NCBI GenBank assembly: GCA_903921365.1
Contig: CAIXPS010000576.1
Location: forward strand, 1 to 56,401
From: an uncultured bacterium
GTDB lineage: Bacteria > Chloroflexota > Anaerolineae > J036 > Brachytrichaceae
Direction: 5' to 3'
DNA length: 56,401 bases
The notes beneath the pieces are model-generated. The model ran no database searches, was not told the DNA's origin, and worked only from the letters and a program-made list of their open reading frames with translations. Made by a program: the position numbers and the translations under genes. Positions 6,555 to 56,225 of the stretch are shown piece after piece; positions within the stretch are counted from its first letter, which is position 1, and each line of letters starts with the position of its first letter.

Positions 6555-8849
6555 TTATTTGACGTCAATTACGCCCAACGGGATCGCATAATCGGGCAGT
6601 GCTGCGCCACTCGCGTCAAACGCCGGTATGCGCTCAACAGTCTTTGGATCATACATGCCGGCCGCCAGGTGATACCTGCCTGCCGGCAATCCAGGGTTTA
6701 GCTGGATGACATAGGCATCGGGAATGATCTCTCCCTTACTCCACAGATTCACCGGGTAAGTGTTGTTTCGCGGCGGTGAGTCTGTTTGCGCTTTTGGGGC
6801 GCCATCGGCGGCCAGCAAATGCACAAATGTGGTGAGTGCGGGCAGGCCGTCTGCGCCGGCGCGCCAGACCAGCGACACGGTCATGGTCTGCCCGGCCTGA
6901 ACAGAAGCAGGGATCGCAACCTGGACGAGGTCGATGGCGGCGCCTAGCCGGAACAGGGCTGGCAGGTTGGCCCACGGCTTGGCCGCACTGGAGTCCAGCC
7001 CAACTGGCAATTGACCAAACTTAGGTTCACAGGTCTGCCCGTTCTGACACGTTGGCGCAAGGTCCGACGCCAGAACATTGCCGCCTGCCGGGTCAAACCA
7101 CGTAACCTTAAATACCAGGGTGGTCGGCGCCAGCGCTGTTGATCTCAACGGCAGGTAGTAGTCCTCGCTGAAGGTGTCGCCAACCTTCCAGAATGAAGTG
7201 GGATAGACGCTGCGTCCGGGCGTGAAGTCCAGACCATTTTGCAGCGAAACACCGTTCGCGGTGAAGTTCTCCACGCGCAGGCCAAAATCTTTCGACATCG
7301 GTTGTAGCGCGCGCCAGTACAGCCTGATGGTAGCGATGTCGCCGAGGTAGGTTTTACGCACCGGAAGCGAGTACCCCAACAGGCGAATAGCTCCCCCGTA
7401 CGTCATATCGAGTGGGAATTGGATGCCGTCCGGGATGGTTACAGGATCGAGCATCTTCGGCTTCTGGTAGAACGGCTGTATGACCAGCGCCGGCGACATG
7501 ACCGCGACCAGTGCGATGCCGGCGAGGACGTAGGCGGCGCTCACGCGCGCGATGAGGCGTGGTAAATGCGCGAGGCCGAAAGCGAGCAGAATAGTCAGCG
7601 CGCCCAGCCCCGGCAGAAGGAATCGCCCGTTCACCAGGCTCAGGTTTGCGCTGGCCAATGTTCGTATGGTCGGCGCCAGCGCAACCGTGGAAAGCATGAG
7701 CACCATCAGCAATGGAAACCAGCGATCCTTGTGCTTCACCAGCGCGAGAACGAGACCGCCCGCTGCGATCAACGCTCCCGCAATCGCCATGTCATACCAG
7801 GCAGCCGGCATGCGCACCAGTCCCCACCCGAATGTTCCGAACATCGTCTCAAAAACCAACCGCCATAAGTAGTTGGCAAAGTTGGTGACGAGGAAAACAG
7901 TTCTATCCAGAATAGATGTGGAGACCACGGGGTTAGGCGCCGCTATCTGCGCCATATCAGGGGTTGCCACAAATGTGGCGTACCCGATTGTCGAGGAGAA
8001 CTGGCGCAATGACCTGCCTTCAGATACGACGCCGCCCGCAATCACCAACGCGGCCAGAACGATGAATGGAAGTAGAAGATCACGCAGTCGCGCGGATCTT
8101 TTCGCGATGACATCGCGGGCGATCAGCAAGCCGACGGCGACGACCGCAAACAGCAGCAATGAGATGGCGTTATCCTTTACCAGCACTGCGCCGGCCAGGC
8201 ATAGCGCCAACGCGAAATAAACCCTGCGCCTTGATTGTTGCGGCGGTTTGGCCCAAAGTCGAACGATAGTCCACAGGGTCAACGCGCCAAAAAACGTCAT
8301 GCCGATATCGTTCGTAATTGTTCCGCCCAGAAAGAGTGTGAGCGGCCACAAAGCGCTGATTGCCATCGCCAGCAGCGCAATATCGGCGCGCTGTGGCAAT
8401 GCCGTCCTGACGGTAAAGCACACAATGGCGACGGTAAGTGTGCTGAGGATGACTGAGACCATGCGACCCAACCGCAACGCCAAAGCAGTGCCGCGATATG
8501 GAAACGCGTCTATCTGCGCATCGGGCACCACATATACTCCGCCGCCAATTGCAAAACGGGGCTGCGCATCATCGGATGTGTCGATCAGACTGATCGGTAA
8601 TGCGACGAGCGCGTAATATAGGGGCGGCTGATGAGATTCGTTGTATTGCGCCAGTGTTGCGTTTGCCGGCGGCAGCGCGTGATGAATTGCAATGTATCGA
8701 GCGTAGGCGTAGTGTCCCGTCTCATCATAGGATTCCCACAACGGTGTGGAGAATGAATAGATGATGCTGATAATGGCATGGATGGTCAGCAACGCCGCGA
8801 AGGCAAGCTGGAATCGTGTTGATTGTGTTCGCATATGAGATACGGGCAT
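6555..8849 (-). CDS. Membrane glycosyltransferase, GT39/ArnT (GT-C) type
   Basis: 764 aa. The N-terminal half has about ten to twelve hydrophobic helices; the first periplasmic loop carries ESYDETGHY (about 39-47), where the Asp-Glu pair is the catalytic site of polyprenol-phosphate-sugar GT-C enzymes, followed by NESHQPPLYYALVAL typical of PMT_2 proteins. After about residue 470 comes a soluble, beta-rich extracytoplasmic domain (YWRALQPMSKDFGLRV, VDLVQVAIPA-like strands). Such enzymes transfer a sugar from a lipid carrier to protein or lipid at the outer face of the membrane. Met6 (8834) is an alternative start; neither has a clear ribosome site. It stands alone, divergent from the alcohol dehydrogenase. 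Confidence 0.8.
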   Translation of the reverse strand: MPVSHMRTQSTRFQLAFAALLTIHAIISIIYSFSTPLWESYDETGHYAYARYIAIHHALPPANATLAQYNESHQPPLYYALVALPISLIDTSDDAQPRFAIGGGVYVVPDAQIDAFPYRGTALALRLGRMVSVILSTLTVAIVCFTVRTALPQRADIALLAMAISALWPLTLFLGGTITNDIGMTFFGALTLWTIVRLWAKPPQQSRRRVYFALALCLAGAVLVKDNAISLLLFAVVAVGLLIARDVIAKRSARLRDLLLPFIVLAALVIAGGVVSEGRSLRQFSSTIGYATFVATPDMAQIAAPNPVVSTSILDRTVFLVTNFANYLWRLVFETMFGTFGWGLVRMPAAWYDMAIAGALIAAGGLVLALVKHKDRWFPLLMVLMLSTVALAPTIRTLASANLSLVNGRFLLPGLGALTILLAFGLAHLPRLIARVSAAYVLAGIALVAVMSPALVIQPFYQKPKMLDPVTIPDGIQFPLDMTYGGAIRLLGYSLPVRKTYLGDIATIRLYWRALQPMSKDFGLRVENFTANGVSLQNGLDFTPGRSVYPTSFWKVGDTFSEDYYLPLRSTALAPTTLVFKVTWFDPAGGNVLASDLAPTCQNGQTCEPKFGQLPVGLDSSAAKPWANLPALFRLGAAIDLVQVAIPASVQAGQTMTVSLVWRAGADGLPALTTFVHLLAADGAPKAQTDSPPRNNTYPVNLWSKGEIIPDAYVIQLNPGLPAGRYHLAAGMYDPKTVERIPAFDASGAALPDYAIPLGVIDVK

Positions 8850-8913
8850 TGCTCGTTATTGTACCGATTTATGGACTTGTGACGCGTGTCGCGTCGAGTT
8901 CGTTGCCCTCTCC

Positions 8914-8919
8914 TATAAT
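8914..8919 (+). promoter_or_regulatory. -10 box TATAAT next to start codon
   Basis: A consensus TATAAT ends 9 bases before the ATG at 8929. No -35 box is visible at the right distance. Transcription would begin within about three bases of the ATG, giving an almost leaderless mRNA, although AGGA at 8921-8924 could serve as a weak ribosome site if the start lay upstream. Confidence 0.5.
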
Positions 8920-8928
8920 GCAGGAACA

Positions 8929-9981
8929 ATGAAAACCACAGTCTTTACCGGCCCACAGAAACTCGAAATACACGATGTCGCGCGCCCTGAATTACTACCC
9001 TCGCAAGTGCTTGTAAAGACGCGCGCGGTTGGACTATGCACGCTGGAGCAGCGCTTCTACAAGGGTAGTTCACCCGACAGTTATCCGTTCCTGGGCGGGC
9101 ACGAGGTGGCTGGCGAAGTGGTCGAGGTCGGCTCGCGGGCAGTGACCAGGGCGCGAGTCGGGGATGTCGTCTGTCTGGCGTTGTTGACCCGTTGCGGAAC
9201 TTGTTATTACTGCCGTCGCGGCATGGACAATCTGTGTATACACAACATGGAAAGCCGAATTGGCGAGCAGACTCCGGGCCCGGCGGGCTTGAGCGAGTAC
9301 GTCGCGGCAGAGGATTACCAGGTTTACACGACCGATCTGCCGCCCACATACGATGCCGACTGGGAATGCCGGTTGTGCGAGCTCGCGCTGGCTGAGCCAG
9401 TGGCTTGCGTGATCCGCAGCGCACAGACGCCCCCGTTGCATTTTGGCGATCTGGTGGTGGTGCAGGGCGCGGGCATCATGGGGTTGTTGCACGCACAACT
9501 GCTCAAGCAACGCGGTGTGCGCATCGTCATGGCGGAACCGGATCTGCGTCGTCAGGAGATGGCGCTGCAGGCGGGCGCAGATTGGGTTGTGGATCCATTG
9601 CACAAGAATCTGTCAGATTTTGTGCGCGAGCGCTCCGACGGCTACGGGGCAAATGCGGTCTTTTTCACCGCAGGCGGCGCGCCAGCAATAGAGCAGGCGC
9701 TCCAGGGCATGGCGAAGGGCGCGTGGTTGTGTTTGTATGGGTCGGTGCACCCAAAGGGGCCGATCCAGATCGACCCGAACCTGATCCACTATAACGAGTG
9801 GGTGGTGACAGGATCATTCAGCCACACCAATTCGAGCTTCCAGCAGGCAGTGGCGCTGATCGCGTCACGCAAAGTCGATACGGGGATGTTTGTCAGTGAG
9901 CGTGTGGCGTTCCCACAGGTGGACTATGCCTTCGAGCGCGCCATCAGTCCAGATACCTATCGCGTTGTCATGACCTTCTAG
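8929..9981 (+). CDS. Zinc-type medium-chain alcohol/polyol dehydrogenase
   Basis: 350 aa, MDR superfamily. The catalytic domain shows GGHEVAGEVVEVG (about 55-67), the structural-zinc loop CGTCYYCRRGMDNLC (about 87-101), and the nucleotide-binding fold VVVQGAGIMGLLHAQLLKQR. The residue run GLCTLEQRFYKG at the usual first zinc ligand keeps the Cys but not the common C-x-x-D, so the active site differs slightly from threonine or sorbitol dehydrogenases. It oxidises a secondary alcohol or polyol with NAD(P)+; the substrate is unknown. Monocistronic, divergent from the membrane glycosyltransferase, with a near-leaderless TATAAT promoter. Confidence 0.85.
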   Translation: MKTTVFTGPQKLEIHDVARPELLPSQVLVKTRAVGLCTLEQRFYKGSSPDSYPFLGGHEVAGEVVEVGSRAVTRARVGDVVCLALLTRCGTCYYCRRGMDNLCIHNMESRIGEQTPGPAGLSEYVAAEDYQVYTTDLPPTYDADWECRLCELALAEPVACVIRSAQTPPLHFGDLVVVQGAGIMGLLHAQLLKQRGVRIVMAEPDLRRQEMALQAGADWVVDPLHKNLSDFVRERSDGYGANAVFFTAGGAPAIEQALQGMAKGAWLCLYGSVHPKGPIQIDPNLIHYNEWVVTGSFSHTNSSFQQAVALIASRKVDTGMFVSERVAFPQVDYAFERAISPDTYRVVMTF

Positions 9982-10020: not shown

Positions 10021-10350
10021 GCAAACATCAGTCACCCGTCACTTGAAGTCGCCATACTGGGATGATAGTATTCCGTTCAAGTAGCTACGCAGTTTCTGTC
10101 TAATCGGAACATAGTCGCTCGCCGCAATCATTATCACAATACACATCAGTATTCATCGGACTCCCATCGGTGCACAATGCCATCCATCGCTCTAAATTGA
10201 TCACCGTCGTTGTTTCATCACGACACATCACACTCCATCAAGCACATTGTTGTTTGTCGCTGTCTTATCGTAGCACGTTGTTTCACATGGCAACTCCATT
10301 GTCGCTCGCGGACCGCCACGCATCGTAGTTTTTACGTTATCCAGAACTGC

Positions 10351-39167: not shown

Positions 39168-40073
39168 ATGTTCGATATTTCTGAGATCGCGGACCGGTAT
39201 GAACCAGATGCTCAAGCAGTTGTGTTTCAAGGCGACTGCCTTGACCTTCTAGCAACCATCCCATCTGAGTCGATCCAGCTTGTTGTTACGTCTCCGCCGT
39301 ATAACCTGGGTAAGGAATACGAGAAGCGATCCACGTTGCCACAATATGTTGCATGGCAAAGTCAAATTATTACCGAGTGCTTTCGAGTCGTAAAACCAAC
39401 CGGCAGTATTTGCTGGCAGGTTGGGAACTATGTTGATAAGGGCCGTATCGTGCCTTTGGACATAGCGCTGTATTCTACATTCGACAAACTCGGCATGCAA
39501 CTTCGTAACCGCATCGTGTGGCATTTTGAACATGGGTTGCACTCATCGCGAAGACTCTCCGGCCGTTACGAAACCATTATGTGGTTTACCAAGACGAGCG
39601 AGTATCTCTTCAACCTTGATCCGATACGTGTGCCACAGAAATATCCAGGCAAGAAATATTTCAAGGGCCCACACGCGGGTGAATATTCGGGCAATCCTCT
39701 TGGAAAGAATCCCGGCGACGTTTGGATTTTTCCGAATGTAAAAAATAATCATATTGAGAAAACGCAACATCCGTGTCAATTTCCAATCGAACTCGTTGAT
39801 CGCCTTGTGTTAGCGCTGACAAACGAGCAGGATTGGGTATTGGACCCGTTTATGGGTGTTGGCTCAACGGTTGCCTCTGCGATACGTCGCCATCGCCGCG
39901 GGGCTGGCGCGGAGATCGTATCGAGTTATGTGGAGATTGCACATAAGCGCATACAACAGGCATTTGAGGGAACACTGAAGGTGCGGGAAATGGGCACACC
40001 CGTGTATGATCCACGAGATGCGGGCATCGCGTTGACGAAAGTTCCATGGACAATTCCAACTGTGGAATGTTAG
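39168..40073 (+). CDS. Orphan beta-class DNA methyltransferase (N4-cytosine or N6-adenine)
   Basis: 301 aa. The catalytic motif IV is TSPPYNLGKEY (about 41-51) and the SAM-binding motif I is DPFMGVGSTVASAI (226 on); motif IV before motif I defines the beta order. The S-P-P-Y form is usual for N4-cytosine enzymes but also occurs in adenine ones. A target-recognition region lies between them. No endonuclease gene is adjacent: upstream are secreted proteins on the other strand, downstream the Mn riboswitch and ATPase. It may be a solitary regulator of gene expression or protection from a distant restriction enzyme. Confidence 0.85.
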   Translation: MFDISEIADRYEPDAQAVVFQGDCLDLLATIPSESIQLVVTSPPYNLGKEYEKRSTLPQYVAWQSQIITECFRVVKPTGSICWQVGNYVDKGRIVPLDIALYSTFDKLGMQLRNRIVWHFEHGLHSSRRLSGRYETIMWFTKTSEYLFNLDPIRVPQKYPGKKYFKGPHAGEYSGNPLGKNPGDVWIFPNVKNNHIEKTQHPCQFPIELVDRLVLALTNEQDWVLDPFMGVGSTVASAIRRHRRGAGAEIVSSYVEIAHKRIQQAFEGTLKVREMGTPVYDPRDAGIALTKVPWTIPTVEC

Positions 40074-40328: not shown

Positions 40329-42998
40329 ATGACAGATTGGCACAACAAGGATACACAGTCGGTTCAACAGGAGCTTGGCGTCTCAGCAGCGCTGGGGCTG
40401 GATGACACCGAGGCCGCAAGCAGGTTCGCGCAGACCGGACCGAACGAACTGATTGACCACGGGATGAAAAGCCCGTGGCGCATCCTGTGGGAGCAGTTCA
40501 CCGCCACAATGGTGCTGATTCTGCTCGCGGCTGCGCTGGTATCCGGGCTGCTGGGCAAAGTGAATGAGACGATCTCAATCCTCGCCATCGTCGTCCTGTT
40601 CAGCCTGCTCGGTTTCACGCAGGAATATCGCGCCGAGAAGGCGATGGCTGCGCTCAAGAAGATGTCGTCGCCCGTAGTGCGCGCGCGGCGGGCGGGACAG
40701 TTGAAGGAATTGCCTGCGCGCGCGCTCGTTTCTGGCGATATCATTCTGCTGGAAGCGGGCAATGTGATTCCTGCCGATGCGCGCATGGTCGAGAGTTATA
40801 GCCTGCGCGCGCAGGAATCGGTGCTGACCGGCGAGTCCGAGCCAGTCGATAAGCACACCGACGCCATTGCTGGCGCAGACCTGCCGCTGGGCGACCGCCG
40901 CAACATGGTGTATATGGGCACAATCGTCACGTATGGCCGTGGGACAGCGGTCGTGGTTGCCACGGGCATGCAGGCCGAACTGGGCAATATCGCGACCGCA
41001 TTACAGGCGGTGAAGCATGAACAAACCCCGCTGCAAAAGCGGCTGGATCAGTTGGGCAAGTGGCTGGCGCTTGCCGGCGTGATCACGGCGGCGCTGGTCA
41101 TGGCGCTCGGCCTGTTGCGCGGCGAGGACTTCCGCGAGATGTTCCTGGCCGGCGTGAGCGTTGCCGTCGCCGTCGTGCCGGAGGGGTTGCCCGCCGTCGT
41201 CACATTTACGCTGGCGCTCGGCGCGCGACGCATGCTGAAACGCAATGCGCTCATCCGCAAGTTGCCCGCTGTCGAAACACTCGGCGCCGTGACGGTGATC
41301 TGCACTGACAAGACCGGCACACTCACCGAAAATCGGATGACCGTGGTCGCGCTCGATGTGGCGGGTCACTCGGCGACCCTTGGCGATGACATCGAGGGCG
41401 CGCCGGGGGACGCCACACGATCGCTGCGATTGTTGCTGACCGGCGCCGCGCTATGCAATGACGCGACCATCAGCCCCGCACCCGTTGACGGTGGCACTTC
41501 GACGGTGGGCGATCCCACCGAGGCCGCGTTGCTCGTTGCTGCGATGCGGATGGGACTGCAGAAGGCGGCGCTTGAGCGGGATATGCCGCGCGTAGCCGAA
41601 CTGGCCTTTGACTCCGAGCGCAAGTGCATGACCACTGTGCACAGGATGGGCGAGATAGCCCACGACACTTCTCTGCCACCGTCGCCCTATATTGCCTTTA
41701 CCAAAGGTTCGGTCGATGGCATCCTGACGATCTCAGACCACGTCATGCTCGACGACGGCCCTGTCGCGATCAATGACGACTTTCGAACGCGCATCGAGCG
41801 CGCCAATGCTGGCCTTGCTGCGCGCGGGATGCGCGTGCTGGGTGTCGGGTTCAAACCGGTGAAAGCCCCCCTCGCCGACGCGAACGCGGAACGCGCGCTC
41901 ATCTTCATCGGCCTGATCGCGATGATCGACCCGCCGCGCGCCGAGGTGACCGTCGCGGTGCAGACGTGCAAGACCGCTGGGATTCGGGCGATTATGATCA
42001 CCGGCGACCATCCGCTGACCGCGCGAGCGATTGCCGAACAACTGGGCATCAGCGCAAACGGCAAGGTCGTCACCGGCCAGCAACTCACTGCCATGAGCGA
42101 CGCCGAACTGACGACGGCGCTGGCCGACACGTCGGTGTTTGCCCGCGTGTCGCCGGCGCACAAGTTGCGCATCGTTGAGGCGTTGCAGGCACAGGGCGAG
42201 GTGGTGGCGATGACCGGCGACGGCGTCAACGATGCGCCGGCGCTCAAGAGGGCCGACATCGGCGTGGCGATGGGTATCACCGGCACGGATGTGTCGAAGG
42301 AGGCGTCGGACACGGTGTTGCTCGATGATAACTTCGCAACCATCGTTTCTGCAGTAGCCGAAGGGCGCACAATCTACGACAACGTCAAACGCTTCGTCAA
42401 ATTCTCGATCGCCGGCAATATTGGCAAGATCGCTGTGATGCTGATCGCTCCGCTGCTGGCGTTGCCGTTGCCCCTATTGCCGCTGCAATTGCTGTGGTTG
42501 AACCTGCTGACCGACGGGTTGCTTGGGCTGGGGCTTGGCGTGGAGCCGGCGGATCGCAACATCATGCGCCGCGCCCCGCGCAGCAAGCGCGAGAGCATCT
42601 TCGCGGGCGGCATGACGGTACACATCGCATGGATGGGCGCCTTGATTACTGTGCTCGCGGGCGGCGTCGGCCTTGTCTACTGGTCTGCCGGACTTGCGAC
42701 GTGGCAGACGATGATCTTCAGCACATTGGCTTTTTGCCAGGTTGCACAGGCGCTGGCTGTGCGGTCGCAACGCGACTCGCTTTTCACGCTGGGACTGTTC
42801 AGCAACAAACTGCTGTTCGGGCTGGTCGTGGGAGTGGTGCTGCTGCAACTGATGGTGTTGTATGTCCCGTTCATGGATGCATTCCTCAATGTCGAATCGC
42901 TGACGCTGGTCGATCTGGCCATCAGCCTCGGGCTGGGCAGCTGTGTGTTGATCGTGTCAGAGGTGGAGAAGGCGTTCATTCGACGCCGTGTGATGTAG
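40329..42998 (+). CDS. P2-type ATPase, Ca2+/Mn2+ exporter
   Basis: 889 aa from the ATG at 40329; AGGAGG lies 8 bases upstream, while the open frame back to 40227 runs through the terminator. Ordered features are the N-terminal cation_ATPase_N domain (about 1-75), actuator loop [19 protein letters not shown] in helix M4, the phosphorylated Asp327 in [11 protein letters not shown], and [17 protein letters not shown] (from 629). About ten helices, four at the C-terminus as in SERCA/PMR1-like pumps. It expels Ca2+ or, given the riboswitch, Mn2+ by ATP hydrolysis at the cytoplasmic membrane. Regulation by Mn2+ through the leader is well supported. Confidence 0.9.
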
Positions 42999-43003
42999 TG
43001 GCA

Positions 43004-43139
43004 GATGGGCAACCGCGGATGGGCAACCGCAGATGGGCAACCGCAGATGGGCAACCGCAGATGGGCAACCGCAGATGGGCAACCGCAGATGGGCAACCGC
43101 AGATGGGCAACCGCAGATGGGCAACCGTAAAGGTTGCCC
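43004..43139 (+). repeat. Minisatellite: nine 14-bp units with a closing hairpin
   Basis: The unit GATGGGCAACCGCA occurs nine times without gaps (43004-43129); the first differs in its last base and the last ends GTA. GGGCAACC of the last unit (43119-43126) pairs with GGTTGCCC (43132-43139) after it, and every other unit can pair there too. It starts 5 bases after the ATPase stop and lies before the URO-D gene. A reading frame passes through it but belongs to no gene. Confidence 0.9.
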
Positions 43140-43197
43140 CTACACCGGTTTGCCTGATTTGGACATTCACTGTAATCTGTATGTGGAGAATGTTGAA

Positions 43198-52180: not shown

Positions 52181-53026
52181 ATGACAACTATTGCTTTGTT
52201 TGGCGCCGCCGGCAAGATGGGCTCGCGCATCTCGCGCCGCTTGCGCAATAATTCGGTCTATACGACGCTATATGTTGAGTCGGGTGAGGCTGGCGCGGCA
52301 CGGTTGCAGGCGCGCGGCGATACACCGACTGCGTCCGACACCGCGGCGGCGACTGCCGATGTGATCATCTTCGCGGTGCCGGACAAGCTGATCGGCAAAG
52401 CGGCGCGACAGGTCGTCCCGCTCATGCGCCCCGGCGCGATGCTGATCATGCTCGACCCGGCCGCGCCCCATGGGGGCGAATTGCCCGAACGCGCCGACAC
52501 CACATATTTCGTGTGTCACCCATGCCACCCACCCATCGTCAATGATGAGACCGACCCCGAGGCGCGCATGGACTTCTTCGGCGCGATCAAAGCCAAACAG
52601 CACATCGTCGCGGCGCTGATGCAGGGGCCGGAAGAGGACTATGCGCGCGGCGAAGCCGTAGTGCGCGCGATGTTCGAACCGGTGATGAACGTATATCGCG
52701 TGACTGTCGAGCAGATGGCGATCCTCGAACCGGCGCTGTCTGAGACCGTGGTGTTGACGTGCATGGTGATCATCACCGAGGCGATTGAGGAGGCCGTCAA
52801 GCATGGCGTCCCGGCGGAAGCCGCGCGCCAGTTCATCCTGGGGCACATGAACGTCAACGTCGGCATCCTGTTCAAGTACATCGACGCGGAACTGTCCGAC
52901 GGCGCAAAGATGGCGGTGTCGCGCGCGCGCGAGCGACTCTTCCAACCCGACTGGAAGAAGGTCTTTGAGCCTGAAAACGTCATGGCCGAGGTCAAAGCGA
53001 TCACACAGGCGACGTCGGTGAAATAA
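52181..53026 (+). CDS. NAD-binding dehydrogenase with phosphogluconate-dehydrogenase C-terminal domain
   Basis: 281 aa with AGGAG 7 bases before the ATG; an open frame upstream to 51884 is a shadow of the Gfo gene. It begins IALFGAAGKMGSRISRRLRN, a GxxGxxG NAD(P) site, continues ADVIIFAVPDKLIG, and has FVCHPCHPPIVNDETD typical of the PF16896 (PGDH_C) group. The C-terminal helices include SETVVLTCMVIITEAIEEAVKHG. Likely role: oxidation of a sugar acid in the same pathway as the Gfo protein. Its last 18 codons reappear at 55341 in a diverged copy, marking the edge of an insertion. Confidence 0.8.
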   Translation: MTTIALFGAAGKMGSRISRRLRNNSVYTTLYVESGEAGAARLQARGDTPTASDTAAATADVIIFAVPDKLIGKAARQVVPLMRPGAMLIMLDPAAPHGGELPERADTTYFVCHPCHPPIVNDETDPEARMDFFGAIKAKQHIVAALMQGPEEDYARGEAVVRAMFEPVMNVYRVTVEQMAILEPALSETVVLTCMVIITEAIEEAVKHGVPAEAARQFILGHMNVNVGILFKYIDAELSDGAKMAVSRARERLFQPDWKKVFEPENVMAEVKAITQATSVK

Positions 53027-53049
53027 CGGAGGCCGACGATGCGACTGGC
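52973..53049. other. Left copy of a 77-bp direct repeat (possible attachment site)
   Basis: Covers the last 17 codons and stop of the PGDH-C gene, its downstream ribosome site CGGAGG and the first 11 bases of the isomerase gene (ATGCGACTGGC), after which homology stops. It matches 55341-55417 at 66 of 77 bases by hand alignment. Confidence 0.7.
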
Positions 53050-53051
53050 TA

Positions 53052-53288
53052 TCAATTGCCCATCGCTTTTTCGGCTTCAATCTCGGCAAGTTTGGCATAG
53101 TGCTGGGCGGTGAGTTGGTCAATGGCATTCATAACAATCGATCGTTTAGGCATGGTGTTGGTCTCCGGATTTGAACCGGCTGTGTTTGTTCGACCGTAAC
53201 GTTCGTCTTTGGTGATGAGTTCAGACAATGACCCTCCGGAATTCAAACGGTTTCTACTGGCTTGAATGAGACTCACGTTTCTTGGCAT
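53052..53288 (-). CDS. Hypothetical 78-aa protein in the inserted segment
   Basis: Start MPRNVSLIQASRN with AAGGAG 7 bases upstream. The end is IDQLTAQHYAKLAEIEAEKAMGN, helical and charged. The same frame is open upstream to 53441, and two further in-frame ATGs (53330 and 53159) each follow GAGACCAA-type ribosome-like sequence, so three starts are possible. No family recognised. It reads opposite to the neighbours and ends 2 bases inside the left repeat boundary. Confidence 0.45.
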   Translation of the reverse strand: MPRNVSLIQASRNRLNSGGSLSELITKDERYGRTNTAGSNPETNTMPKRSIVMNAIDQLTAQHYAKLAEIEAEKAMGN

Positions 53289-53504
53289 CTTGTTGCTCCT
53301 TGAATGTGGCTGGTAAAACATGGGCGGCATCGTATTGGTCTCTTTTAGAAGGTCAACCGGTCTATCGTCATACGTTGAGGGTCTATACTTTGTGGACAGG
53401 AAAGAGCCTTGGGAGGGCGTGATACATGACACCGAAGGCAATTAGCATGAATACGCTTTTCTATGGTGATAACCCGCCCATATTTTTCTAGTTCGAGAGG
53501 CTAT

Positions 53505-54485
53505 ATGCTGCGTTCGAAATCTGGTACTGAATGGAAAAAGTCGCCTGCCCACTTACTACTACTAAGCAAGCACTTGTCCCCTAGGGTCACAAGTGATTTT
53601 GCAAGGGGAGACAATTGGCAAGAGGTTCTGGGAGAGCCCGTTGCAAAAGCGATTAATCGGTTCAAGGACGACAACGTTATTGATATTTTGGCAACAGATG
53701 AGCTATTGGATATCAAATACAAGGTTACTGAACTCAAGCAGATACTAAAGTCAAAACAGATTCAAGTATCAGGTACAAAACGAGCATTGATCCAGAGATT
53801 ACTTAATGCAGATCCCGAAGGTGCGCAGAAGGCAGTAGCTGACATGACTGTCTATATATGCACAATGGAGGGTAAATCGATTGCTGACCAATATCTGGCG
53901 CATGAAAAAGAAAAACGAACACTAACCGAGCAGCATGTACTAGAGTCGCTTAAAAATGCGAAGTATAAAGAGGCAGCTATTATTGTCGCCCAATTTGAGG
54001 CAGAGCAAGTGTTTCCACGAGGCATGGGGATCGATTGGGAAAAATACAACACCAAACACGACGAGATCTTCCTCAATAAGTTGTTCACATGCAAACCTAA
54101 AGTGCTATCCGCGTTGTCTAATGAACAGCTATATACGGGACGTCTAATCGGAGCGCTCCGCCGCCTTTTTAGTTACTCTGATAATTACCTGTCATTACCG
54201 GACGATTTTGATAATCCCACTGTATATGACAAATCATCAATTCTCCACCTATTGATGTCAAATGCCTATTTCCATACGGTAATCGCCGAAGCGGTGGAAT
54301 TACATAGAACCTTAGGCAATATCGTAATCGAGGTATTGACGGTTAATGATGATCTGGTATGTGATGAATGCAAAACATTGACGAAGCATCCATTTGAAAT
54401 CAACCAGGTACCAGAGTTACCATATCAGAAATGCACTTGCAAGTTTGGGTGCCGCTGTTCTATTAGCGCTCGACCCCAGTACTAG
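53505..54485 (+). CDS. SAP-domain protein in the inserted segment
   Basis: 326 aa from the ATG preceded by GAGAGG; the frame opens 14 codons earlier. Residues about 75-110 (KVTELKQILKSKQIQVSGTKRALIQRLL) are a SAP domain, a helix-extension-helix DNA-binding unit. The C-terminus has VLTVNDDLVCDECKTLTKH and CTCKFGCRCSI, like the Cys/His end of phage head-morphogenesis (Mu gpF-type) proteins. Codon use is AT-richer than in neighbouring genes. The protein is likely carried by a mobile element; a DNA-handling role is inferred from SAP only. Confidence 0.65.
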   Translation: MLRSKSGTEWKKSPAHLLLLSKHLSPRVTSDFARGDNWQEVLGEPVAKAINRFKDDNVIDILATDELLDIKYKVTELKQILKSKQIQVSGTKRALIQRLLNADPEGAQKAVADMTVYICTMEGKSIADQYLAHEKEKRTLTEQHVLESLKNAKYKEAAIIVAQFEAEQVFPRGMGIDWEKYNTKHDEIFLNKLFTCKPKVLSALSNEQLYTGRLIGALRRLFSYSDNYLSLPDDFDNPTVYDKSSILHLLMSNAYFHTVIAEAVELHRTLGNIVIEVLTVNDDLVCDECKTLTKHPFEINQVPELPYQKCTCKFGCRCSISARPQY

Positions 54486-54674
54486 GCAATATGAAATCAC
54501 ACTCGCCGGGTTGGAACCGGGACTACCCGAAAATACAAACCTTGACCATTCGCAAGTTGTCTATCGGCGCCGAAATCAAAATGGCCCACCCCGAAGGAAA
54601 TTCTAGCAAGTGCCGAAGGCAAAGTATGATGACGATGGAACACAGCCAGAGTTAGGATTGGAGTAGTTCACAAG

Positions 54675-55196
54675 ATGGACCTAAAGAAAATCACCGAACA
54701 CCTGAATTACGAGTACACCCAGCTTGAATTCCTAGCCGTGAAATTACCTGGAATGTGTGATGACGACGTACGGTTACAGTGGGCATGCCTTGAGGCTTTT
54801 CTTGTACATGCGAGGGTGCTACTCGATTTCCTACATCTATGGGATGGAAATGGGCTTGCTTCAAATTATGTGGTCAAAACAGAGTGGTGGCAGGATAAGG
54901 TAGTTGAACAAGCACTAAATACTGACTTATTGAAAGATGCTCGTAATTATGCGAACCAACGTGTCGCACACTTGACTCCTGAGCGGTATAGCACTATCCC
55001 AGAGGTAAAGTATCTGGACATTGCACGCGACATCGAGAAGGCGTTTCACGAATTTCTTAAACTGGCAAAACCTGAGTTGTTATGTGACCAGTTGCGCGAG
55101 TTAAAGAACACACCTGAGCAGCGACCGATTGAAAAAGTTTATGCTGTTGTTGGCCACGTAACAATTAGCACTTCGCCAGATACGAGAGCCAAATAA
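54675..55196 (+). CDS. Hypothetical 173-aa protein in the inserted segment
   Basis: Not assigned to a named family. MDLKKITEHLNYEYTQLEFLA, CLEAFLVHARVLLDFLH and ARNYANQRVAHLTPERY are recognisable as a widespread helical unknown family often found on mobile elements and near defence genes. The first part is helical, the latter basic. GGAG lies 12 bases before the ATG, which is far. AT-rich like the SAP gene. Confidence 0.6.
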   Translation: MDLKKITEHLNYEYTQLEFLAVKLPGMCDDDVRLQWACLEAFLVHARVLLDFLHLWDGNGLASNYVVKTEWWQDKVVEQALNTDLLKDARNYANQRVAHLTPERYSTIPEVKYLDIARDIEKAFHEFLKLAKPELLCDQLRELKNTPEQRPIEKVYAVVGHVTISTSPDTRAK

Positions 55197-55312
55197 AACG
55201 AGCCAGATAGAATCCAGAAGGCCATGTTTCGTTTGGTGGATTTGGCATACGCGAATCTTAAAGTTAGCTTAAATATTTCTTGACGTTTATCATGTTTGGC
55301 TATGTTTACAAA

Positions 55313-55340
55313 TTGACTGCCGTTTCCTTCCTGTTACAGT
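55313..55340 (+). promoter_or_regulatory. Outward promoter at the insert edge
   Basis: TTGACT (55313-55318), 16 bases, TACAGT (55335-55340), reading into the isomerase gene. It ends exactly where the right 77-bp repeat begins, so the insert could restore transcription of the gene it separated from its operon. Confidence 0.4.
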
Positions 55341-55417
55341 GAGAACGTCATGGCCGAAGTAAAGGCAATCACACAGGCGACTGCGGTGAAGTAACGGAGG
55401 CAAAGGATGCGACTGGC
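55341..55417. other. Right copy of the 77-bp direct repeat (possible attachment site)
   Basis: Contains 17 codons of a diverged PGDH-C 3' end with stop, CGGAGG and the first 11 bases of the isomerase. Seven of eight coding differences to the left copy are synonymous. Confidence 0.7.
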
Positions 55418-56225
55418 GCTCAGTTCATATACCTACACGTGGGCAATTGGCGTGCCGAGCCAGTTACCTGCAACACCCATGACGGCTGTCGATCTGCTCA
55501 AATGCGCGGCAACGCTCGGTGTGTATGTTGTACAAGTGGCTGACAATCTGCCGCTGGATCGCCTGAGCGCCGACGAGATGTACGCGTTTGAGGTGACTGC
55601 CAAACGGCTTGGCATTGCGATTGAGGTTGGCACGCGCGGCATTGCGCCGGAGCATCTGCGCCGTTACCTGGCGCTGGCGCAGCGCTTCCATTCGCCCATC
55701 CTGCGCGTGGTGATCGACACCGCGAGCCATCATCCGACGCCGGACGAAGTTGTCGCGATCCTGGCGACGCTGGAAGGCGAGTTCCGGCGCGCGGGCGTTC
55801 GCCTCGCCATCGAGAACCACGACCGTTTCACCGCGCCAGTGTTTGTCGACATCGTTCGACGCCTGGGCGACTGGACCGGCATTTGCCTCGACACGGTGAA
55901 CTCGTTTGGCGCGCTTGAAGGGCCGCGCGTCGTCGTCGAGACGATTGGGCCGCTGACGATCAACCTGCACATCAAGGACTTCGCCATCTTCCGGGCGAGT
56001 CACATGATGGGGTTCAACATTGAGGGACGACCGGCAGGGCAGGGGCGCTTGGATGTGCCGTGGCTGATCGAGGCGTTGCAGGCGCGCGGGTGTGACGTCG
56101 ATGGGACGATGAGTGCGGTGCTCGAACTGTGGACGCCGCCTGAATCGGCGCTACGCGATACGATTGCGAAGGAGCAGCGCTGGGCCGAGGAGAGTGTGGC
56201 CTATCTGCGCGCGGTGATCAAGTAG
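55407..56225 (+). CDS. Sugar phosphate isomerase/epimerase (AP-endonuclease-2-type TIM barrel)
   Basis: 272 aa, with CGGAGG 8 bases before the ATG. The xylose-isomerase-like barrel has LAIENHDRFTAPVFVDIVRRLGDWTGICLDTVN, where Glu and Asp bind metal, and NLHIKDFAIFRASHMMGFNIEGRPAGQGRLDVPWL, the conserved His-Lys-Asp segment. It isomerises or epimerises a sugar or sugar acid in the cytoplasm. The natural neighbour upstream was the PGDH-C gene, as the left 77-bp copy shows; the insert now separates them. A partial SDR follows 20 bases later. Confidence 0.85.
   Translation: MRLALSSYTYTWAIGVPSQLPATPMTAVDLLKCAATLGVYVVQVADNLPLDRLSADEMYAFEVTAKRLGIAIEVGTRGIAPEHLRRYLALAQRFHSPILRVVIDTASHHPTPDEVVAILATLEGEFRRAGVRLAIENHDRFTAPVFVDIVRRLGDWTGICLDTVNSFGALEGPRVVVETIGPLTINLHIKDFAIFRASHMMGFNIEGRPAGQGRLDVPWLIEALQARGCDVDGTMSAVLELWTPPESALRDTIAKEQRWAEESVAYLRAVIK

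Follow-up and report, generated by a model that had tools for sequence, protein, structure and literature searches.

The PGDH locus and its insert

Within the window (the whole 56,401-nucleotide stretch of DNA analysed here), a gene for a PGDH-C family dehydrogenase of 281 aa (52181-53026, plus strand; PF16896, E=1.5e-60) and an intact gene for a sugar isomerase-like TIM barrel protein of 272 aa (55407-56225, plus strand; PF01261, E=1.4e-15) are held apart by an insert of 2282 bp (53058-55339). A repeat search of the window found the insert to be bounded by an 86-nt direct repeat with 84% identity between its copies, far above background. Copy 1 (52972-53057, plus strand) comprises the last 17 PGDH codons, the stop codon, the motif CGGAGG and the first ~7 codons of an isomerase gene (MRLAIN), and thereby lies at the restored end of a complete PGDH reading frame; copy 2 (55340-55425, plus strand) is an orphan PGDH 3' end together with the start of the resident isomerase gene. 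The PGDH tail ENVMAEVKAITQATSVK of the first copy recurs as ENVMAEVKAITQATAVK in the second. The initial annotation had described a repeat of 77 bp with 66 identical positions, and a recount over the same 77 bp again gave 66, but homology extends slightly beyond those limits, into isomerase codons 5-7. It is lost at both ends of the repeat. No identical run exceeds 14 bp, and the same search found no inverted repeats around the direct repeat.

The coding differences between the copies are, as had been claimed, mostly synonymous: among the 18 codons compared (17 plus the stop), 8 differ, 7 of them synonymously and 1 by a replacement (S>A). When copy 1 was randomly mutated with the same number of changes, as few replacements arose in just 0.03% of 100,000 trials (P = 3e-4). 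Moreover, the 57-nt PGDH tail matches the second copy at 49 of 57 positions, as against 23-32 of 57 for the best downstream match in the other PGDH loci tested. The scarcity of replacements and the tail match argue that the repeat is not due to chance and that both copies were coding for most of their separate history; the 7:1 ratio indicates that they diverged as functional alleles. Copy 1 is probably the allele that arrived with the insert.

The empty site expected from an insertion is found in relatives. Among the nearest PGDH relatives, most have the isomerase gene starting between about -4 and +40 bp from the PGDH stop (examples are L005, L006, L049, L051, L052, L055, L056, L060, L061 and L064), and the insert is absent from relatives with this adjacency. 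The closest PGDH found (L048, 77%) is followed by a different gene. None of the other PGDH loci tested has a second PGDH tail that would mark this gene end as a hotspot; one relative (G041:C8) has a pair of PGDH genes, distant paralogues separated by 3.3 kb. The synonymous pattern and the empty site together back the original proposal of an insertion in which the gene end was restored by an allele of foreign origin.

The insert is single-copy in its genome (G000) and, as first read, AT-richer than its surroundings, with 44.5% GC against 62.3% for PGDH and 62.8% for the isomerase gene. The reported absence of an integrase also held: there is no recombinase among the insert ORFs and no match to PF00589 on the contig (C576), and a genome-wide search limited to that family, the tyrosine recombinases, gave only four matches in 6.9 Mb. 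An opposed ORF of 129 aa (53052-53441, minus strand) exists as a frame but is doubtful as the gene it was taken for, since it has no match in 30 genomes, Pfam, PHROGs or NCBIfam and partly overlaps a methyltransferase remnant; it is probably not a gene. On the same strand, two near-identical segments with the motif GAGACCAAyACsATGCC lie about 180 bp apart (53140-53350), each before a short ATG frame. At the other end of the insert, a 173-aa protein of no assigned family (54675-55196, plus strand) has no Pfam, NCBIfam or plasmid match and occurs in none of 199 other genomes.

Between these lies a SAP-domain gene of 326 aa (53505-54485, plus strand; PF02037, E=5.8e-8), whose product ends in CxxC ... 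C-C-GCRC. Its start is probably at 53505, although the ORF opens at 53463, because a homologue with 73% protein identity in a congener (G003 contig 74, L022) has the same start and length. The SAP gene was identified as such from the outset; what escaped the first reading is that it sits between the two ends of a broken methyltransferase gene. A tblastn search with the full methyltransferase found its first 19 codons at 53426-53482 and its last ~50, frameshifted, at 54500-54654. The 5' remnant (MTPKAISMNTLFYGDNPPIFF*; 53426-53491, plus strand) is 79% identical over 19 aa to the start of a 550-aa methyltransferase in G003:C11, and the 3' remnant (HSPGWNRDYPKIQTLTIRKL... / QVPKAKYDDDGTQPELGLE*; 54500-54667, plus strand) is 45% identical over 40 aa (aa 497-536, E=3e-9). 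The L022 homologue likewise lies inside a broken methyltransferase (5' piece 8758-9006, inner piece 10159-10323), and the presence of this arrangement in both genomes suggests that the unit is probably older than either insertion.

The SAP gene is intact and under purifying selection (dN 0.16 and dS 1.16 against its L022 homologue, dN/dS ~0.14), so that the suggestion of an old, decayed element agrees with the methyltransferase remnants but not with the SAP gene itself. A further suggestion, that the SAP protein takes part in a new mode of transfer, found no support: remoter relatives hold one conserved chromosomal position beside the SSB gene in two congeners (L023, L024), and a family of ordinary chromosomal genes is unlikely to have moved the insert. 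The same relatives speak against the protein being a recombinase, for which Foldseek against PDB returned only the SAP domain itself and low-confidence FAN1 matches (model mean pLDDT 66), and the protein had no match in viral contigs and phages. Elsewhere in the window, a solitary DNA methyltransferase gene of 301 aa (39168-40073) lies within a stretch of 48% GC, and a tandem array of a 14-bp unit (GCAGATGGGCAACC; 42987-43155) lies just behind a P-type ATPase gene.

Orphan gene ends at other loci

Judged by its sequence signature, integrase-free gene-end restoration recurs at unrelated genes, namely comEC, a methyltransferase and clp. The common architecture is an intact gene, small accessory genes of lower GC content and an orphan gene end downstream, with no integrase. 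In the genome of the window itself, the gene order at a second locus is a ComEC-like gene (755 aa), a DUF2442 gene, an orphan comEC 3' end and an AAA ATPase gene (L228, G000:C8, 5142-2350, minus strand). Over 17 codons the orphan shows 8 synonymous changes, 1 replacement and 1 stop (P = 1e-4), and the best 57-nt match of comEC scores 44, a value that among 151 control genes never exceeds 35. In the congener G001, comEC has no orphan within the 1.5 kb read.

The congener G003 carries an intact DNA methyltransferase gene followed by three diverged orphan 3' ends (L161, G003:C11, 5929-80, minus strand), spaced by AT-rich gene pairs: a HipA-type kinase (HipA_2) with DUF3037, and a 191/136-aa pair. 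The starts of the methyltransferase orphans of G003 and of the window differ by no more than a few bases; as for a class-wide hotspot at this gene end, G003:C11 was the only case among two dozen loci tested. In another family (L211, G151:C162, 1609-6044), UPF0175 and DUF2283 genes separate a Clp-type gene from a first orphan clp end downstream, and a TumE-type pair separates that end from a second one; both orphans have the same upstream junction, GCTTGCTTCGC. A sister species (G047:C147, a case known by coordinates only) has an orphan clp end of 67% identity (aa 665-727) 4.4 kb downstream of clp. Set against the intact end, the clp orphans show 9 synonymous changes to 9 replacements, and 11 to 15; with this larger share of replacements they are older, or less constrained, than the PGDH and comEC orphans of G000.

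The orphan 3' ends at the PGDH, comEC, methyltransferase and clp loci all lie downstream of an intact gene but start at different depths: ~17 codons at PGDH, 20-24 at comEC, 44-46 at clp and ~52 at the methyltransferase. A comparison of the four restored gene ends revealed no common core, and the passengers among these loci are as small as 0.4 kb.

The methyltransferase case in G003 emerged from mapping that gene, and the comEC and G151 clp cases from a subsequent scan, which compared the last 60 residues of each ORF with the 8 kb that follow it on its own strand and covered 617 kb of the 6.9 Mb of G000. Strict matches were found for 2 of 423 genes in G000 (one being the window), 1 of 157 in G003 (a locus known before the scan), 1 of 201 in loci of the class after removal of one diversity-generating retroelement (DGR), 0 of 299 in G023 and 0 of 636 in diverse loci. 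The controls gave one match each, for gene starts (L242, a near-identical repeat) and for gene middles (spurious). As neither the window nor the methyltransferase locus was discovered independently by the scan, the counts yield no rate, nor do they establish that gene-end repeats are commoner in G000 than elsewhere.

Two loci met along the way are of other kinds. At L242 (G003:C11, 2769-4278, plus strand) a 502-aa gene has its first 37 codons repeated upstream at 97%, a recent 5'-end repeat that is opposite in kind to the gene-end cases. At L159 (G230:C358, 2512-4090) the end of a protein with a SAP domain and likeness to formylglycine enzymes is found again 180 bp downstream, in an Asn-rich version. 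Such a repeat is typical of a DGR, here with a target protein that carries a SAP domain; the match was set aside as a gene-end case since it resembles a template/variable repeat pair.

Possible routes of entry

We give a probability of roughly one half to the reading that foreign accessory DNA entered the PGDH locus by homologous recombination, through a single crossover with a recircularised donor circle and without a dedicated integrase. The donor, a fragment of a related genome, would have carried its own PGDH 3' end and first isomerase codons, joined to the passenger genes. Recircularised through one illegitimate joint, it would then have recombined by a single crossover inside the ~86 bp held in common with the recipient PGDH end, giving, in order, PGDH with the donor end, the passengers, the displaced resident end and the intact isomerase gene. 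With the displaced end directly before the isomerase gene, the operon genes would stay intact, and reuse of the restored end would account for stacked orphan ends. Since the donor part stops within the isomerase gene, the PGDH case would call for another odd junction. A circular intermediate, a role for RecA and uptake by transformation are parts of the proposal that we infer; DprA and ComEC are both present in the genome, which makes DNA uptake by this bacterium plausible.

Several lines of evidence favor the single crossover. Direct repeats that end where homology ends, with one copy from another allele, are a Campbell-type feature, and the locus combines two alleles, empty sites in relatives, foreign composition and a lack of recombinases, the four PF00589 matches in 6.9 Mb all lying off C576 and DprA being present. 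The synonymous pattern arose independently at PGDH and at comEC, the same integrase-free architecture is found in G000:C8, G003:C11, G151:C162 and (by coordinates) G047:C147, and the orphan ends vary in length and share no core. There is also an experimental precedent in E. coli, where plasmid DNA that came in by conjugation, was shortened within its homologous end and closed again into a circle gave, by single crossover, mainly partial duplications of the target gene end, of 109-950 bp (PMC3240628). As at PGDH, a partial duplication of the target end, of overlapping size range, bounds the insert without any integrase, but the laboratory event was selected and involved identical DNA, whereas the PGDH insert is natural, its alleles are 16% diverged and the gene stays intact. 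Against the single crossover, RecA would have had little homology to act on (86 bp at 84% identity), and no donor genome was found.

The shared clp junction and the near-equal methyltransferase orphan starts would be equally expected from a site-specific mechanism. Such a mechanism, with a tyrosine or serine recombinase acting in trans on the PGDH 3' end, or a CIME-like relic that has lost its integrase, the repeats being attL and attR, seems unlikely though worth considering. The restored gene end and att-like repeats fit it, and four tyrosine-recombinase matches do lie elsewhere in the genome. Integrative elements with their own integrase (ICEs, IMEs and genomic islands) match the locus in the restored 3' end and the direct repeats, but not in the internal integrase gene; CIMEs and islands located at protein-gene 3' ends share the restored end and the repeats at both ends, CIMEs also the missing integrase, yet the PGDH insert is very small and shows no clear core, and no related integrase-bearing element was found. 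That said, the site-specific element first envisaged fits poorly with a longest identical run of 14 bp, the lack of inverted repeats around the repeat, orphan depths ranging over ~17-52 codons, four gene ends without a visible shared core, the lack of a second occupied PGDH site among the loci tested and passengers as small as 0.4 kb.

We think it rather improbable that a linear donor entered by homology-facilitated illegitimate recombination, with a crossover in the PGDH end, end joining upstream and no circle. This process, known from competent bacteria, likewise combines one homologous with one illegitimate joint, would yield the same product and would allow a variable orphan start, and it has been suggested, tentatively, for Vibrio T6SS immunity arrays with displaced effector ends (PMC5361080); however, published events mostly delete ~1 kb of recipient DNA (PMC3240628), and here there is a duplication. 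An old PGDH-isomerase tandem duplication whose middle was replaced by foreign DNA is very unlikely. The paired PGDH genes of G041:C8 might seem a parallel but are too distant as paralogues, no trace remains of a second PGDH body or a first isomerase body, and a remnant should decay freely, yet the differences are synonymous. The metagenome bin is fragmented (603 contigs) and two alleles stand on one contig, but an artefact of assembly or strain mixing is scarcely credible: the region has no N, a join would have to fall within the single-copy AT-rich insert, and both junctions would still put the insert beside PGDH-isomerase alleles. A transposon target-site duplication or filled-in breaks can be rejected, the copies being alleles that diverged through synonymous changes, and so can DGR variable and template repeats, as A>G and G>A changes run both ways and are not adenine-confined to one copy.

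Gene-end restoration and the spread of accessory genes

The single-crossover reading, with its displaced and stacked gene ends, invites comparison with the effector-immunity arrays of Vibrio T6SS and with orphan Rhs/CDI ends, which also show displaced downstream 3' ends and stacked passengers with no integrase found (PMC5361080). In those systems the end that is exchanged belongs to the toxin itself; at the present loci PGDH, comEC, clp and the methyltransferase keep their C-terminus (with only S>A at PGDH) and the passengers are unrelated genes. The restored targets are metabolic or housekeeping genes, not polymorphic toxins or effectors with an exchanged C-terminus. A word search of open full texts found no report of the pattern at ordinary genes, which is weak evidence of novelty.

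Toxin-antitoxin and defence genes move between genomes, and how solitary, recombinase-free ones enter chromosomes is mostly unexplained. The recurring pattern, often with toxin-antitoxin-type passengers, suggests an integrase-free route for collecting accessory genes. More speculatively, and in our view improbably, the Anaerolineae might possess an integrase-free cassette system in which small toxin-antitoxin or defence cassettes carry a host-gene 3' end as an address, insert through recombination at that end, restore the gene and stack into arrays on its repeated use. Since gene-end restoration leaves a scar, in the form of an orphan 3' end with a past as coding DNA, the route would be countable in genomes by a simple scan, and it would also be testable in transformable laboratory strains.
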